Source: a virus. Taken from it: a stretch of 64,000 nucleotides of DNA. Position 1 is the stretch's first letter. Each line of letters starts with the position of its first letter. A model generated the notes under the pieces. That model was not told where the DNA came from, did no database searches, and was given only the letters and a program-made list of their open reading frames with translations. Shown here one piece after another: positions 10,227 through 40,990 of the stretch. The position numbers and the translations under genes are program-made. The stretch lies in the IMG/VR virus record IMGVR_UViG_3300005095_000015, positions 1-64,000 of that record; one strand, given 5' to 3'.

Positions 10227-10571
10227 ATGTTTAATCTCAAGGTTTATTGTACTTTGTATGATGGTAAAGTGAAGATTGTCGAGTACCATCCACTTATTAC
10301 TAGAACCTTTCCTACAAGGAAAGAGTTACAAGACTACTTAGAGATGTGTTTTGCAGAAGCTTGCGATCAGGTCAAGTTTGAACAAGGAACTTATCAAGTT
10401 GAGTGTGACTATCCTATACCTATGCAGGACAGAAAAATCAAAGTGAAATACAAGTTCACTATAACGGAGGAGGGCAAGAAGTATGGAAAAAGTAGCAGCC
10501 GAATTCCAAGTAAAAAAGAGGAACGGAAGCATTGTCTCTTTCGATTACTGGAGAATCTACCACGCCGTTAA
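10227..10571 (+). CDS. Hypothetical protein overlapping nrdD (114 aa)
   Basis: The ATG follows AGGAGAGTGTA, 10 bases after the flap endonuclease stop. The N-terminal 85 residues look like an ordinary small alpha/beta protein. The last 30 residues are very basic and lie in the 89-base overlap with nrdD, whose start at 10483 has its own strong ribosome-binding site. Such a long overlap is unusual here and may mean the tail is an accidental extension. The family is unknown. Confidence 0.45.
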   Translation: MFNLKVYCTLYDGKVKIVEYHPLITRTFPTRKELQDYLEMCFAEACDQVKFEQGTYQVECDYPIPMQDRKIKVKYKFTITEEGKKYGKSSSRIPSKKEERKHCLFRLLENLPRR

Positions 10572-12609
10572 AAAGGCTTTTAACTCAGTAAATCTCAATT
10601 CTTACTTATCTCCTCAGCAGGAACATGAAGTAAAGTCCGTAGCTGACACAGTTTTTACTAAGCTTTATTCCGAGTTTTTTAAGTATGGCTCAATTCCTCA
10701 TGTGGAACGGATTCAGGACATAGTTGAGACAACCTTGATGGAGAAAGGATTTCCCGAGGTTGCCAAGGCTTACATACTTTACCGTGAAAAGAGAAGACAG
10801 GCAAGAGAGATTAGTGAAGCTTTAGTGGACGGAATAAATCTTATAGATGATTATTTGGAAGAGGAAGATTGGAGAGTAAGAGAAAACTCAAATATGACTT
10901 ATTCACTACAAGGACTTAACTTTCATGTATCTTCTTCTATTGTAGCTCGCTATTGGCTTACCAAGATATATCCAAAGGAGGTGGCGGAGGGTCATCAGAA
11001 TGGTGATTTTCACATACATGATTTGGGCTGTTTATCAGCTTATTGTGTGGGTTGGGATTTGTATGATCTGCTTCTTAGGGGTTTTGGCGGTGTTAGAGGA
11101 AAGATAGAAAGTAAACCAGCTAAGCATTTTAGAAGTGCTTTGGGTCAGGTAGTTAATTTCTTTTTCAGTCTTCAAGGAGAAGCAGCGGGGGCTCAAGCAT
11201 TTTCTAATTTTGACACTTTACTTGCTCCTTTCATTCGCTATGATAAATTGACTTATCCTGAAGTAAAGCAAGCACTGCAAGAATTTCTTTTCAACATGAA
11301 TGTACCTACGAGAGTCGGGTTCCAGACACCTTTCACGAATCTCACATTTGATCTTAAACCTTCCTCTATTTATGCTAATATGGCTGTTATTGTAGGAGGG
11401 CAGGCTAAGGATGAGACTTATGCTGAGTTTTGTGAGGAAGTGATAATGATAAATCGTGCCTTTTGTGAGCTTATGATGGAAGGTGATGCGAAGGGCAGGA
11501 TCTTCACCTTTCCAATCCCGACCTATAACATTACGAAGGACTTTGATTGGGACAATTCTGAGTACACACCTCTTTGGGAAATGACGAGAAAGTACGGCAT
11601 TCCTTACTTTGCTAATTATGTGAATTCTGATATGGATCCAGCGGATGCTATGAGTATGTGCTGCAGGTTGAGACTTGATAAGAGAGAGATACAGAAAAGG
11701 AACAAAACGCTTCAGAAGAGAGGCGGTGGATTGTTTGCGTCTAACCCTTTGACTGGTTCAATAGGTGTTGTTACTATTAATCTCCCTCGTATAGCCTACT
11801 TATCATCTTCTGAAGATGAATTCTTTGAAAGGCTTACCGAAGCAATGGAGCTTGCTAAGACTTCTTTGGAGATTAAGCGTAAAGTAGTCGAGGAGCTTAC
11901 CGAAAGAGGTTTATATCCATACTCCAAGGTTTATCTTGAGTCAGTAAAACAAGCAACTGGTAAGTATTGGACAAACCATTTTTCTACTATAGGTTTGGTA
12001 GGTATGCATGAGATGTGCCTTAACTTTCTCGGTCTACCTATCTATGATCCTGATGCTAAGCAGTTTGCTATAAAAGTGCTTAAGTTTATGAGAGAAAAAA
12101 TTTTGAAGTTTCAAGAGGAAACCGATAATCTTTACAATCTTGAAGCTACTCCTGCAGAAGGTGCAAGTTACAGACTTGCTAAAGTGGATAAGAAAAAATT
12201 TCCTAACATTAAAACATCTGGTACAGATGCTGTACCTTACTATACAAATTCTTGTCATTTACCGGTAGACTACTCTGACGATGTTTTTGAAATATTGACA
12301 CATCAGGATGATCTTCAGGTGCTCTTTACCGGAGGAACCGTCATCCATCTCTATATAGGAGAAGAGATCTACAGTGCTGAGCTTGTAAAGGAAATGGTTA
12401 AGACGATTACTCAAAACTTCCGTTTACCTTACTTTAGTATCACCCCAACCTTCTCTATTTGTCCTGTTCATGGTTACATACCAGGCAAGCATGAGTTTTG
12501 TCCTTATCCACACACAGAGGAAGAGCTTAAGAAGTATGGTATAGAGATTGAGGTTGGGGATAAGTTTTTGAGCAGGACAAGTCCTAATACTTATAAAGTA
12601 AATATGTAG
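10483..12609 (+). CDS. nrdD: Anaerobic (class III) ribonucleotide reductase, lacking the glycyl-radical domain
   Basis: This 708-aa catalytic chain reduces ribonucleotides to deoxyribonucleotides without oxygen. Residues 5-105 form an ATP-cone regulatory domain (KKRNGSIVSFD). The alpha/beta barrel carries Cys393-Cys394 in SMCCRLRLD and the conserved ANPLTGSIGVVTINLPR segment. SICPVHGYIPGKHEFCPYPH (Cys660, Cys673) marks the start of the C-terminal zinc region. Relatives then continue into a glycyl-radical loop with the motif RVVGY or RVCGY. Here the chain stops after about 35 more residues without it. The missing segment is encoded by its own gene at 13980-14135. The start ATG 10483 has GGAGGAGGG upstream. 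No activase (NrdG) is seen in the window. Confidence 0.93.
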   Translation: MEKVAAEFQVKKRNGSIVSFDYWRIYHAVKKAFNSVNLNSYLSPQQEHEVKSVADTVFTKLYSEFFKYGSIPHVERIQDIVETTLMEKGFPEVAKAYILYREKRRQAREISEALVDGINLIDDYLEEEDWRVRENSNMTYSLQGLNFHVSSSIVARYWLTKIYPKEVAEGHQNGDFHIHDLGCLSAYCVGWDLYDLLLRGFGGVRGKIESKPAKHFRSALGQVVNFFFSLQGEAAGAQAFSNFDTLLAPFIRYDKLTYPEVKQALQEFLFNMNVPTRVGFQTPFTNLTFDLKPSSIYANMAVIVGGQAKDETYAEFCEEVIMINRAFCELMMEGDAKGRIFTFPIPTYNITKDFDWDNSEYTPLWEMTRKYGIPYFANYVNSDMDPADAMSMCCRLRLDKREIQKRNKTLQKRGGGLFASNPLTGSIGVVTINLPRIAYLSSSEDEFFERLTEAMELAKTSLEIKRKVVEELTERGLYPYSKVYLESVKQATGKYWTNHFSTIGLVGMHEMCLNFLGLPIYDPDAKQFAIKVLKFMREKILKFQEETDNLYNLEATPAEGASYRLAKVDKKKFPNIKTSGTDAVPYYTNSCHLPVDYSDDVFEILTHQDDLQVLFTGGTVIHLYIGEEIYSAELVKEMVKTITQNFRLPYFSITPTFSICPVHGYIPGKHEFCPYPHTEEELKKYGIEIEVGDKFLSRTSPNTYKVNM

Positions 12610-12614
12610 TTTGT

Positions 12615-12643
12615 TTTCATCTCTAAGTTTCTCCGGTTATAAT
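12615..12643 (+). promoter_or_regulatory. Phage promoter P3 (box plus TATAAT)
   Basis: TTTCATCTCTAAG (12615-12627), preceded by GTT rather than GT alone, then 10 bases and TATAAT (12638-12643). It lies directly after the nrdD stop and drives the run of small genes that includes the glycyl-radical protein. Confidence 0.78.
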
Positions 12644-12741
12644 ATAATGTGAAGGAAAGCAGTTCAAGGAGGTGAAAGCGGCTATAACAAGAATAGTGGT
12701 TGAAGGGTTGAAAAAGGTTAAGGTAAAGTAAGGAGGTGAGA

Positions 12742-13011
12742 ATGCCTTGGTGGAAAATTGTTTGGTGTGTAGGTGGTGTTATAACTTTCTTGATTTTGCT
12801 TGTCTTCTTTTTCTCTTTTTGGAAGGAAGAGCTTCGTTTGAAAGGATATCTAACTTTAGGTGAGATTGTAATCTCTTTGTTCATTGTAGCCTTAGTTTCT
12901 TTTTGTTGGGTTGCTGTACCTGCGGCTTTTCTGTTTTGTTTATCGGTGTATCCAGTATATTGGTTGCTTAGTAAAGTATTTAGTGTGAAGGTAATAACGA
13001 GGAGGAACTAA
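12742..13011 (+). CDS. Membrane protein, 2-3 transmembrane segments (89 aa)
   Basis: ATG 12742 was chosen because AAGGAGGTGAGA lies just upstream; an in-frame GTG at 12736 overlaps that site. Residues 3-26 are strongly hydrophobic, and residues 36-80 contain one or two more spans. The end is basic (VKVITRRN), so the C-terminus is probably cytoplasmic. Aromatic residues are abundant (W, F). It is the first clear gene after promoter P3. Function is unknown; an inner-membrane effector or holin-like role cannot be tested from sequence alone. Confidence 0.55.
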   Translation: MPWWKIVWCVGGVITFLILLVFFFSFWKEELRLKGYLTLGEIVISLFIVALVSFCWVAVPAAFLFCLSVYPVYWLLSKVFSVKVITRRN

Positions 13012-13049
13012 GGATTGGTAGGGTTAAGATTATAAGAAGGGGGTTTGTT

Positions 13050-13349
13050 ATGAGTAAAGAGTCTAAAGGTTGGATTTGTCCTAAGTGCGGGATTGCTTTG
13101 GCACCGTGGATGAGTTTTTGCCCTTTTTGCTCTCGTATAGGTGAACGAAGAGTTGATGAAGGAGAATCAGTAGTTCAACCTCCTGATCCGAACATCAAGC
13201 CTCCAGAATTTGAAGAAGTTAGTGAGGGCGAAGCTCCCGATCCTTTGGGTTGGGCAGCGAATAAGTTAAGTCTTAAGCGCAAGATTGAAGAAGTTATGGA
13301 CAAGGCTAAGAAGTCGAAGCGCGAAGTAATTTATCGCAGTATTCTTTAA
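13050..13349 (+). CDS. Small zinc-ribbon protein (99 aa)
   Basis: Residues 9-28 contain CPKCG and CPFC, a classic zinc ribbon. A Pro/Glu-rich linker (about 45-65) and a basic helical tail follow. It begins ATG 13050 after AAGGGGG. It could bind nucleic acid or protein; the family is not identified. Confidence 0.55.
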   Translation: MSKESKGWICPKCGIALAPWMSFCPFCSRIGERRVDEGESVVQPPDPNIKPPEFEEVSEGEAPDPLGWAANKLSLKRKIEEVMDKAKKSKREVIYRSIL

Positions 13350-13363
13350 ATTGGGGGTAGTCT

Positions 13364-13591
13364 ATGAGCGACTTTCCTTTTGAAACTATAACAAAGGACA
13401 ATGGTGAGTTACTTGTTAAGTTTGACGAAGAGAATGTTAAAAGGTATTTAGATTGGGCAGTGGAAAAGTGGAGAAAGCGTTTGAACGATGCACAGCAGAA
13501 CAAAAGCAAAGTTGGCGAACTAATTGCAAATTGTTATATTGATGCTTTTCTTTCAGTTAAATGTTCTCTGTTTGGGAGGGAATGGTTATGA
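13364..13591 (+). CDS. Hypothetical protein (75 aa)
   Basis: The ATG follows GGGGGTAGTCT. The product is short, acidic at the start and helical in the middle (WAVEKWRKRLND), ending in a Cys-containing hydrophobic helix. It overlaps the next start by 4 bases. No family is recognised. Confidence 0.45.
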   Translation: MSDFPFETITKDNGELLVKFDEENVKRYLDWAVEKWRKRLNDAQQNKSKVGELIANCYIDAFLSVKCSLFGREWL

Positions 13592-13791
13592 ATTGGATGA
13601 ATCCTGTTGATATTACTAATCTGTCTCATCCGTTGAATCCTGCCAACCCTGTAGGTTTAGCAATTTACTCAAGGCATGCAAGTAAAGCGTCTAATTGTGC
13701 GGCTTCGAATGATGGAGTCTAGATTATCCTTTTGGTAGTTTTGTTTATGATTGCTATTGGGTTGTTTTTGAAAGTTGCTGATAAGTGGTAA
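13588..13791 (+). pseudogene. Asn/Pro-rich small membrane protein interrupted by an in-frame TAG
   Basis: From ATG 13588 (GGGAGGG upstream), 44 codons give MNWMNPVDITNLSHPLNPAN and onward, then TAG at 13720-13722. The same frame continues without break for 22 codons that encode a hydrophobic span (IILLVVLFMIAIGLFLKVADKW) ending in TAA at 13789-13791. Small phage proteins with NP-rich starts and a C-terminal membrane span are familiar, so the two parts look like one gene. The TAG may be a mutation, a sequencing error, or a site of suppression or readthrough. Confidence 0.5.
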
Positions 13792-13804
13792 GGAGGAAAA
13801 TCAC

Positions 13805-13987
13805 ATGATACCTACTTACGCCGAGTTTCTTATCAAGTTTAAAGATTTGCTTTACAACTATCCATTGATTGTCATTTTACATGCATTTGAAGATTACCTG
13901 ACCGGTGGAGAGAATGCAGCTAAGCAGGTATTTATTGAGTATGATAAAATTTTAAATACAACTGAAAGGAGGTGTAGTGATGAGTAA
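13805..13987 (+). CDS. Hypothetical protein (60 aa) overlapping the glycyl-radical gene
   Basis: ATG 13805 has AAGGAGGAAAATCAC upstream. The product is a small helical protein ending TERRCSDE. Its last 8 bases overlap the start of the glycyl-radical gene, whose AAAGGAGGTGTAGTG site lies within it, so the two are probably translationally coupled. The family is unknown. Confidence 0.5.
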   Translation: MIPTYAEFLIKFKDLLYNYPLIVILHAFEDYLTGGENAAKQVFIEYDKILNTTERRCSDE

Positions 13988-14135
13988 GAAGGTTGTTGTA
14001 GTACCCTGCGAAGTTTACTCTAGGGTAGTAGGTTATTTTAGACCAGTGCAGAACTGGAACAAAGGCAAGCAGCAGGAGTTCAAGGAGAGGAAGACCGTAA
14101 GGTTAGATTCTTTTAAAAAACAGTTGTCAAAGTAA
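13980..14135 (+). CDS. Stand-alone glycyl-radical domain of NrdD (51 aa)
   Basis: The product contains EVYSRVVGYFRPVQNWNKGK, the C-terminal glycyl-radical region of class III ribonucleotide reductases; Gly18 in RVVGY is the expected radical site. A Cys at position 10 (VPCEVYSR) may join the zinc site begun by Cys660 and Cys673 of NrdD. The start ATG 13980 has GGAGGT 7 bases upstream. The NrdD chain encoded at 10483-12609 ends just before this region, so the two together make one full-length enzyme. Six genes and promoter P3 separate them. It resembles in concept the YfiD/GrcA protein that repairs pyruvate formate-lyase, but its sequence is of NrdD type and NrdD has no copy of its own. Confidence 0.9.
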   Translation: MSKKVVVVPCEVYSRVVGYFRPVQNWNKGKQQEFKERKTVRLDSFKKQLSK

Positions 14136-14152
14136 ATTAGGAGGGACTAGGT

Positions 14153-15115
14153 ATGATTACTCTTCGTCAGTTTTTAAACCACTCTCGCCCCGCTTTTGAC
14201 AAGCTATTTCAAACAAGAATGGTTTATTCAGCTCCTGATAGTTTGTTACTTTCAGCTTTAGGTGCTCGTATTTGTTATTCAGCAGATCATCCTATCAAAC
14301 TTCTTCGTAAAGATCCCCGTGTAAATTCTTTGGAAGACCGAGTAAAGTTTCTCACTCGTCTTTACCAAGCTAAACATTTCTCAGTCTTCGCTCATTCCCC
14401 ATTCTTTTTTGTAGAACCAGCAGAAAGAAAGCCTTTGATTTTGTTTAAGTTGTGGTTTGTAGATAAAGGGGCAGATAGATACTACTGTGGTAACTTTAGG
14501 CATTTAGCCGAGGCATGCAAGTTTAACAGTTTATCAGCAGAAGCATTCGAGCTTTATTTGAGACATGTTTCTGATTTAGCTCAGGGTGTAGATATTAGTT
14601 TGTGGGTTTCTTGGGAGTTTGATGATGAGCCTACAGTAGTTGAACTTAGTGATTATGGCTATGGTGAAGATTTAGAGAAATCTTGTGTGCTTTGTTTCTA
14701 CATTGATTCTTTTCCTTGGGGTTGGTTTAGTTTTATAATACATGGAGCATCTCGAGTATTTAGCCATCAACTTGTTCGTCATACTTGGTTGAACTTTAGT
14801 CAGAGGAGCCATCGTTATACGAAAGTAGATAGAGTTGTTAAGCCTTGTTTGGCTGAAGACCTTCACTATAGCTTTGACGAAGCTGTATGGCTCTCTATTA
14901 GGACATATCATACTTTGGTTGAACTGGGTACTCCCAAAGAAGACGCTCGCTTTATAGCTCCTACTGGTACAGCTACTACTATCATGGCTTCAGGTCCGCT
15001 CTTTGTTTGGCAAGACTTTGTAGAAAAACGCAATCATCAGCGGGCTCAGTGGGAAATACGAAGATTCGCTCAGATAGTCGATCTTTGCATCAAGAAATGC
15101 TGTCCAGTATTATAG
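14153..15115 (+). CDS. thyX: Flavin-dependent thymidylate synthase
   Basis: This 320-aa protein should make dTMP from dUMP using FAD and methylenetetrahydrofolate. The key region at residues 209-222 reads RHTWLNFSQRSHRY, against the family pattern RHR-x7-S; the third position is Thr instead of Arg, while Ser219 and Arg221 are kept. FAHSPFFF near residue 83 and SRVFSHQLVRHT fit the family, as does LAEACKFNSL. It is longer than many ThyX (about 220-260 aa), with an extra segment around residues 120-175. ATG 14153 follows AGGAGGGACTAGGT. It sits with RNR and dCMP deaminase in a dTTP-supply set. Confidence 0.85.
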   Translation: MITLRQFLNHSRPAFDKLFQTRMVYSAPDSLLLSALGARICYSADHPIKLLRKDPRVNSLEDRVKFLTRLYQAKHFSVFAHSPFFFVEPAERKPLILFKLWFVDKGADRYYCGNFRHLAEACKFNSLSAEAFELYLRHVSDLAQGVDISLWVSWEFDDEPTVVELSDYGYGEDLEKSCVLCFYIDSFPWGWFSFIIHGASRVFSHQLVRHTWLNFSQRSHRYTKVDRVVKPCLAEDLHYSFDEAVWLSIRTYHTLVELGTPKEDARFIAPTGTATTIMASGPLFVWQDFVEKRNHQRAQWEIRRFAQIVDLCIKKCCPVL

Positions 15116-27120: not shown

Positions 27121-27375
27121 ATGTACTCAAGAGAAGTTGTGGACACGATTACTGGTATAGAAGAAACCGTGATTACTTGTCCTTATTGTGAGATGGAATT
27201 TGTAGTAAAGCTGCTTACACGCACATCGGAAGACGATCCTGATATATTTGACGCACTTGAGATATTAGGAATTTCCTATGATTCGGATAGAGAGTATGGT
27301 GTTTTCTTTTACAAGCAAGTTCCTGAGTTCTGTCCTTACTGCGGTGAAAGGTTAGAGTGGGAGAATGATGAATGA
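27121..27375 (+). CDS. Small zinc-ribbon protein (84 aa)
   Basis: CPYC near residue 20 and CPYCGERLEW near the end give a zinc ribbon split by about 50 residues. It lies between terminase and the portal region. CTGGAGGTTGGTTAGCG precedes the ATG, and the stop overlaps the next start by 4 bases. Function is unknown. Confidence 0.55.
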   Translation: MYSREVVDTITGIEETVITCPYCEMEFVVKLLTRTSEDDPDIFDALEILGISYDSDREYGVFFYKQVPEFCPYCGERLEWENDE

Positions 27376-40890: not shown

Positions 40891-40964
40891 GCCGGCGTAG
40901 CTCAACTTGGCAGAGCAGGGGATTTGTAATCCCTTGGGTGTGGGTTCAACTCCCTCCGCCGGCT
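40891..40964 (+). tRNA. tRNA-Thr (anticodon UGU)
   Basis: GCCGGCG (40891-40897) pairs with CGCCGGC (40957-40963), a fully G/C acceptor stem. The D arm is GCTC...GAGC, the anticodon arm GGGGA-TTTGTAA-TCCCT gives anticodon TGT, and the T arm GTGGG-TTCAACT-CCCTC has one U-U mismatch. CCA is not encoded. It reads ACA threonine codons. The gene lies between sheath and tube genes on the same strand, an unusual place. Confidence 0.93.
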
Positions 40965-40990
40965 CTTAATCCAAGAGGAGGTGTTTAACG

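Follow-up and report, generated by a model that had tools for sequence, protein, structure and literature searches.

Class III (anaerobic) ribonucleotide reductases are treated as enzymes that keep the radical glycine on their own catalytic chain, NrdD. Free-standing small glycyl-radical proteins that dock in a barrel enzyme are known as the pyruvate formate-lyase spare parts YfiD/GrcA and Y06I, the latter being a protein of phage T4. To our knowledge, neither the split class II NrdJa/NrdJb of Pseudomonas aeruginosa nor the split class I NrdA of phage Aeh1 separates a radical-storing residue from the catalytic chain. The locus considered here lies in the 95,675-bp IMG/VR virus record IMGVR_UViG_3300005095_000015, the first 64 kb of which (positions 1 to 64,000) form the window that was analysed. 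Judged from its genes and their relatives, it is highly likely to encode a two-chain class III ribonucleotide reductase, in which a 51-amino-acid (aa) chain would be a detachable glycyl-radical subunit.

The phage enzyme shares the barrel, the finger-loop cysteines, the zinc ribbon and the glycyl loop with the one-chain NrdD of known structure (T4, Thermotoga maritima, Prevotella copri and Streptococcus thermophilus), as judged by profile, alignment and fold. It has an ATP-cone, which is absent in the T4 and Thermotoga NrdD, and it differs from the one-chain form in that the glycyl-radical loop and the C-terminal tail are a separate gene product. Unlike YfiD/GrcA and Y06I, this product belongs to the NRDD family (PF13597); a Pfam scan of the 51-aa protein up to an E value of 1 returned PF13597 only, placing it outside the pyruvate formate-lyase-type glycine-radical family. 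Moreover, the phage body lacks a loop of its own, so that the small chain would be a needed subunit and not merely a repair part as YfiD/GrcA is. According to the excerpted text of PMC8683613, only YfiD and Y06I had been validated as spare parts by then. The NrdJa/NrdJb and Aeh1 NrdA chains likewise consist of two assembling polypeptides (PMC3267527 and PMC9669993, both available in part), but they belong to other reductase classes. Phage class III genes in pieces have been described as well (phiAS4 and the T-even intron; Dwivedi et al. 2013); however, in the available part of PMC3653736, one is explained by an intron and the other is a fragmented gene that has a one-chain relative of 97% identity, whereas the present split is common to whole bacterial and archaeal clades. 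The enzyme family, the spare-part principle for pyruvate formate-lyase and the split class I and II reductases are known already, and sequence databases already contain both pieces of split class III reductases. In the open-access literature, we found no description of a class III reductase in which the radical residue is encoded by a gene of its own.

The two chains of the proposed phage reductase

The first-pass annotation had placed an NrdD chain without its glycyl-radical loop at 10483-12609, and the missing NrdD C-terminus, preceded by a ribosome-binding site, on a separate 51-codon gene at 13980-14135. This was borne out, coordinates and frames included, and the features of the two genes are as follows.

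10466..10472, + strand: ribosome-binding site GGAGGAG of the NrdD body gene, read from the sequence
10483..12609, + strand: NrdD body of 708 aa, catalytic chain of a class III ribonucleotide reductase, lacking the glycyl-radical loop (PF13597, NF006126, AlphaFold2 model)
10507..10797, + strand: N-terminal ATP-cone, residues 9-105 of the body (PF03477, E 5.7e-21)
11653..11667, + strand: finger-loop motif SMCCR with Cys393-Cys394, from alignment
12460..12513, + strand: zinc-ribbon-like C-terminus of the body, CPVH ... CPYPH (Cys660, His663, Cys673, His677), read and compared with other tails
13965..13972, + strand: ribosome-binding site AAAGGAGG of the small gene, read from the sequence, seven bases 5' of the ATG
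13980..14135, + strand: putative detached glycyl-radical subunit, 51 aa (PF13597 positions 533-560 of 562, E 2.4e-10)
14031..14033, + strand: codon of Gly18, the expected radical glycine (RVVG-Y), from alignment of homologues

The body matched PF13597 over positions 1-531 of 562 with 597.6 bits (cut-off 26.2), in addition to the ATP-cone, and NCBIfam NF006126 over positions 4-653 of 684 with 1007.5 bits (cut-off 548). The PF13597 match of the 51-aa protein reached 40.1 bits, above the same cut-off, and its NF006126 match covered positions 651-682 with 29.5 bits (E 2.2e-7), which is far under that whole-protein cut-off. Compared with full-length NrdD in this way, the long and the small protein tile both family profiles. 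The body combines an NRDD match across the barrel above the curated cut-off with a class III catalytic-chain fold and the finger-loop cysteines. Since the glycyl-radical loop, which an ordinary NrdD has on the same chain, sits on a separate open reading frame (ORF), the body was counted as a variant and not as an ordinary NrdD.

The AlphaFold2 model of the body had a mean predicted local distance difference test score (pLDDT) of 85.7 and a predicted template modelling score of 0.80. In a structure search with this model, the top 21 PDB rows were all class III NrdD with Z scores of 27-33, and the next rows were at Z 20 and below. Cys393 and Cys394, which we take to be the thiyl-radical site, were invariant in 50 aligned chains picked from 72, one-chain relatives included, and the CPVH...CPYPH C-terminus is predicted to bind zinc. 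The small protein consists of a nine-residue lead followed by CEVYSRVVGYFRPVQNWNKGKQQEFKER. Gly18 was invariant in 27 of the 27 homologues chosen for alignment, as were 12 positions in all. Compared with five Thermodesulfobacteriota homologues, the proportion of nonsynonymous differences of the small gene was 0.10-0.13 and that of synonymous differences was saturated (0.82 or more), which points to purifying selection. No relative of the 51-aa protein was found in PDB, where the best hit was PsaK at chance level (E 0.39), and a second model, of the one-chain L194, which gave the loop region a pLDDT of 73-81, adds little.

In the mechanism that we propose, the long chain would be the catalytic body, with the ATP-cone, a ten-stranded barrel, the thiyl cysteines and the zinc ribbon. 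The radical S-adenosylmethionine (SAM) activase NrdG, probably that of the host, would abstract a hydrogen from Gly18 and leave the radical on the small chain. Once charged, this chain would dock on the body and insert its RVVGY loop into the barrel beside Cys393/394, and the glycyl radical would pass to a finger-loop cysteine for nucleoside triphosphate reduction as in the one-chain enzyme. Binding, radical formation and turnover by the two chains are predictions from sequence comparison. For one-chain NrdD, cleavage by oxygen at the position of the glycyl radical is described (PMC3019208, available in part). Because oxygen cuts NrdD at this glycine, exchange of the small chain would be cheap: a fresh small chain would restore the costly body after oxygen damage, and the split may double as a repair design in which the damaged radical subunit is replaced. 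A natural two-chain form would also make the radical step separable: the body, the radical carrier and the activase could be combined, labelled and exchanged, whereas the one-chain enzyme hardly permits this.

Split NrdD in bacteria and archaea

Assembly of the radical in trans had been proposed by the first-pass annotation, and comparative genomics strongly supports it through unlinked halves and the lack of a one-chain copy in the record. The strongest evidence comes from two spirochaetes, G165 and G176, each of which is essentially one contig (2.78 Mb and 2.76 Mb). Their halves are ~527 kb and ~97 kb apart, respectively; the body lies behind nrdR, the small gene overlaps the start of nrdG, and no one-chain NrdD copy was found in either genome. 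The nrdG genes of G165 and G176 scored 140 and 148 bits against a TIGR02495 cut-off of 131, and nrdR of G165 was over the TIGR00244 cut-off. The overlap with nrdG puts the putative radical carrier together with its activase. Two draft genomes, G057 and G157, have their halves on different contigs, a weaker case than that of G165 and G176. Taken as a whole, the radical of the phage enzyme is very probably assembled in trans.

Other radical-SAM genes were seen beside free peptides. The peptide gene of L095 (G057) lies near a radical-SAM gene with an FGPVxSRRLG-like start, and that of L285 (G157) overlaps a radical-SAM gene with the same kind of start and no NrdG match. Such genes may possibly encode an alternative activase.

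To judge how widespread the arrangement is, a genome collection was scanned with a DNA pattern that combines a ribosome-binding site, an ATG and, a short lead further on, the radical motif. At least 119 stretches were found: 92 paired a body with a separate ORF for the radical peptide, 23 showed the radical ORF and no body within the stretch, 3 encoded a one-chain enzyme, and 1 (L158) combined such an enzyme with a free peptide. Since the loci were selected by this pattern, their strong ribosome-binding sites prove nothing. Among the matches listed were Thermodesulfobacteriota, Desulfuromonadales, Spirochaetota, Lentisphaerota, Diapherotrites archaea and several candidate phyla. By these sequence matches, a body and a radical peptide encoded by separate genes are not a phage oddity and are widespread outside phages.

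Draws of Spirochaetota and of the Thermodesulfobacterium phylum were not picked by the DNA pattern, though their centre genomes were. In the Spirochaetota draw, 28 of 50 genomes matched nrdD; after the DNA was read, 21 were split and 7 one-chain, the one-chain calls for G170, G155, G167 and G152 resting on the profile. The split ones comprised 17 adjacent pairs and the 4 unlinked cases above, and in one split genome (G061) a TAA stands between the halves. Fifteen of the 28 genomes in the archaea draw matched, one at only 17 bits; nine bodies ended at 525-541 with a separate radical match, four were called one-chain, G207 was assigned to neither form, G063 was the one checked in DNA, and in G218 the NrdD match runs through one TAA. 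In G065, from an overlapping draw (38 of 39 genomes already counted), the body match ended at 528 and there were two radical matches. Several genomes (G157, G166 and G187) had more than one free peptide per body, G141 of the Thermodesulfobacterium phylum had a one-chain enzyme with a free peptide on another contig, and in the L158 bacterium four genes stand in a row, namely nrdR, full-length nrdD, one for a free radical peptide that has CxxC pairs of its own, and nrdG. As a separate observation, the NrdD body of L209 (G146) is far more divergent, and its radical match lies apart from it, ~190 nt away; the split may have arisen in another NrdD subfamily too.

The zinc ligands of the two chains were compared as well. 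A cysteine five residues before the EVYSR glutamate, presumably the fourth zinc ligand, was present in 19 of 21 one-chain relatives. Among 95 split pairs, 56 small chains retained this cysteine, and their bodies lacked an evident fourth ligand (44) or had a histidine at +4 (12). In the other 39 pairs, the small chain lacked the cysteine and the body supplied its own ligand in 39 of 39 (32 CPxxH, 7 CPxC); the window pair is of this second type. No pair lacked the fourth ligand on both chains (0/95; Fisher p 3e-16); this complementarity is not independent evidence, for the tree provides no more than two independent contrasts; both go the expected way, and significance is unreachable with so few. 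That 12 pairs have a candidate on each chain makes a strict either-or reading less tenable. The zinc site is perhaps shared between the chains: in 44 of the 95 pairs the cysteine on the small protein stands in register with the fourth ligand that is missing from the body. For the Prevotella NrdD structure, the available part of PMC11226230 describes a structural zinc site that immediately precedes the radical loop.

With respect to origin, the window body was 74% identical to that of Thermodesulfobacterium hydrogeniphilum, 73% to T. hveragerdense and 72% to Thermosulfurimonas dismutans by BLAST, and 81% identical over 591 columns to that of another Thermodesulfobacterium (L176). The small protein was 82-91% identical to its nearest Thermodesulfobacteriota counterparts. 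In the tree, the window, the viral L007 and 13 Thermodesulfobacteriota formed a 15-row all-split clade (support 99/99) inside a 23-row all-split clade (100/99). Seven changes between split and one-chain states were counted on the 100-row tree, at least five of them forced by supported branches; the split was therefore gained, or lost, several times. These trees used a simple model (LG+G4) and have long branches; a quick tree with L209 gave 9 changes and the careful one without it 7, both with at least 5 forced. Nested among Thermodesulfobacteriota split genes, the split NrdD is not a phage invention, and we infer that the phage inherited the split form from this group, the likely hosts.

Viral radical peptides and rival explanations

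Among 50 IMG/VR records with either protein, 6 had a one-chain NrdD, 41 the small gene only, and 3 a body plus a separate small gene. A further 16 of 16 pattern matches were small gene only. Apart from the phage record, 57 of 60 IMG/VR records with a free radical peptide lacked an NrdD body, many of them being fragments. The ends were read for 29 of the 31 orphan records of at least 30 kb: 7 had exact terminal repeats of 68-127 bases, 2 had repeats of 22 and 30 bases, 2 had overlaps of 186 and 206 bases with one mismatch, and 18 had no repeat. Orphan genes were found between terminase and P22-like portal genes (L045), by terminase genes (L021, L017) and by a thioredoxin gene (L020).

In an annotated phage collection, 13 records matched the small protein, and no match covered 80% of it. 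Among four of these that were examined, MT835493 and OR420712 were one-chain and ANMV-1, a virus of uncultured archaea (KP703175.1), had an orphan peptide. Its 144-aa coding sequence (AJP62049.1; L310:2680-3114), annotated as an anaerobic ribonucleoside triphosphate reductase, consists of CxxC pairs and the radical loop only, and no NRDD body was found in the 38,465-bp record. It resembles the window peptide in being a free radical peptide, but it has an extra N-terminal part with the CxxC pairs. In the available part of PMC4372165, this gene is presented as a viral ribonucleotide reductase sensitive to oxygen, and not as a radical peptide; at least one orphan viral peptide has in this manner been read in print as a whole reductase.

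Two side observations concern phage NrdD. In MT835493.1 (L309), a glutaredoxin/thioredoxin-like domain, by reading, is fused after the radical loop of a one-chain NrdD. In Prevotella phage Lak-C1 (L312), NrdD is divided into two pieces far apart, one at profile positions 31-170, with three in-match stops under the standard code, and the other at 260-560, with the loop on a 622-aa frame starting at profile position 260; an insertion or another code is perhaps the cause.

The orphan viral copies and the free peptide beside a full-length NrdD in L158 fit a spare-part role. The small protein might then be mainly a spare part for the host NrdD, and not a partner of the phage body. The lack of a body in ANMV-1 and in the 57 records speaks for this possibility, as does the identity of the small protein to its Thermodesulfobacteriota counterparts, which makes cross-use likely. 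However, the phage body has no other radical loop and needs a partner, and the body and the small gene have the same closest relatives. We consider this explanation very improbable for the phage pair. A broader reading is slightly favoured: the radical peptide would be exchangeable and traded in trans by anaerobes and viruses, body-less viruses would carry it as cargo that arms the host's class III reductase in the course of infection, and the zinc ribbon would be completed across the chains in many lineages, the zinc stapling the part in place. If true, it would amount to the first spare-part system of a ribonucleotide reductase, and the orphan viral genes would be a new viral means to prop up the host DNA-precursor supply. 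It would also answer a question left open in the excerpt of PMC8683613, namely whether spare-part glycyl-radical proteins exist for enzymes beyond pyruvate formate-lyase.

Several observations weigh against the two-chain reading or limit its reach. By profile ends alone, 23 of the 28 spirochaetes looked split, and three of these (G164, G186 and G175) turned out to be single chains with a long linker; because of these three, profile-only counts overstate the split form. In the Thermodesulfobacterium-phylum draw, 54 of 79 genomes matched and only 6 were split, plus 1 unclear (G082). Among these split calls, G051, G098 and G120 were checked in DNA, G084 and G146 are reported as separate frames, and G135 resembles G051. 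Of the seven viral loci that the NrdD body itself recovered, six were one-chain. Finally, no NrdG was found in the phage record by TIGR02495 or PF13353, the one weak match being closest to QueE, and therefore the phage would have to rely on a host activase. A related split phage (G007) has a PF13353 match over the cut-off (42.5 bits).

The long-linker spirochaete enzymes (L304, L305 and L307, from the three genomes above) are one-chain NrdD in which the linker runs from the ribbon end to the radical loop. They are possible intermediates between the one-chain and the split form.

A second explanation is decay, in which an insertion disrupted the phage nrdD and left two functionless remnants. 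The pieces are 1.37 kb apart, and no relatives of the five ORFs between them were found among the retrieved loci. However, both pieces are intact, conserved and apparently under purifying selection, the split is common to whole bacterial clades, and the small gene retains its own ribosome-binding site, which makes decay very improbable.

The least credible explanation is that the two genes still yield one chain, whether by splicing of an intron, trans-splicing of an intein, a frameshift or readthrough of the stop codon. Interruption of nrdD by a group I intron in some T-even phages and broken phage nrdD genes have been reported (PMC3653736, available in part), some bodies have intein-like in-frame insertions, and in 16 of the 93 body/small pairs that are adjacent in relatives, a single stop separates two halves in the same frame. 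However, an Rfam scan of the window at gathering score gave only a tRNA and no group I or II intron. A split intein was rejected on the grounds that the small chain has only nine residues before CEVYSR, leaving no room for a C-intein, and that the body has just 36 residues beyond Cys673, not enough for an N-intein; no intein profile was listed in the Pfam and NCBIfam scans of both chains. In the phage, the two genes are in different frames with five ORFs intervening. In the 93 adjacent pairs, the halves were in another frame in 63 and in the same frame in 30 (32%, as by chance), and the stop codon after the body was TAA in 43, TGA in 30 and TAG in 20. With this random frame relation, and with halves as far as 97-527 kb apart in some relatives, readthrough and frameshift were rejected. 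Splicing into one protein, which the first-pass annotation had named as an alternative, thus left no sign. A full-length NrdD elsewhere, its other alternative, was absent as well, the NRDD scan of all 95,675 bp matching only the body and the small gene.

Large in-frame insertions, one to three per chain and at recurring positions, were seen in several NrdD bodies, namely L007 (1080-aa frame), record G024 of L025 (1501-aa frame), L092, L119, L146 and L186. They are probable inteins.

Neighbouring genes in the phage record

The phage record looks complete, because its ends share an exact 91-bp direct repeat. The genes around the small gene are listed below.

12742..13011, + strand: intervening ORF, 89 aa, hydrophobic, no family over cut-off
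13050..13349, + strand: intervening ORF, 99 aa, weak zinc-ribbon matches under cut-off
13364..13591, + strand: intervening ORF, 75 aa
13588..13722, + strand: intervening ORF, 44 aa
13805..13987, + strand: intervening ORF, 60 aa, 3' end overlapping the start of the radical-subunit gene
14153..15115, + strand: ThyX thymidylate synthase, directly 3' of the small gene, a deoxynucleoside triphosphate synthesis context (PF02511, E 2.2e-34; TIGR02170, 95.5 bits, cut-off 87.9)

Two details of the first-pass annotation did not hold here. It had counted six intervening genes, and we counted five ORFs of at least 44 aa, unless a tiny one near 12673 is included. It had also placed a promoter between the two genes; the site at 12614-12643 (10/12 matches) is no evidence for one, since 4 such sites occur in 12400-14200 and 3.3 are expected from shuffles.

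Elsewhere in the window, the sole RNA family match was a tRNA-Thr (TGT) at 40891-40965. Seven ORFs, starting at 27372, 29674, 29908, 31566, 32489, 34157 and 37102, have a common N-terminal tag like MSKAKELLE, which we take to resemble the T4 capsid-targeting sequence of internal head proteins. Beyond the window, at ~82.8-84.3 kb of the record (L193:650-2136), a QueD-like gene (84.7 bits, just below the cut-off of 89.25) lies near a QueE-like gene, which suggests a 7-deazaguanine pathway in the phage.

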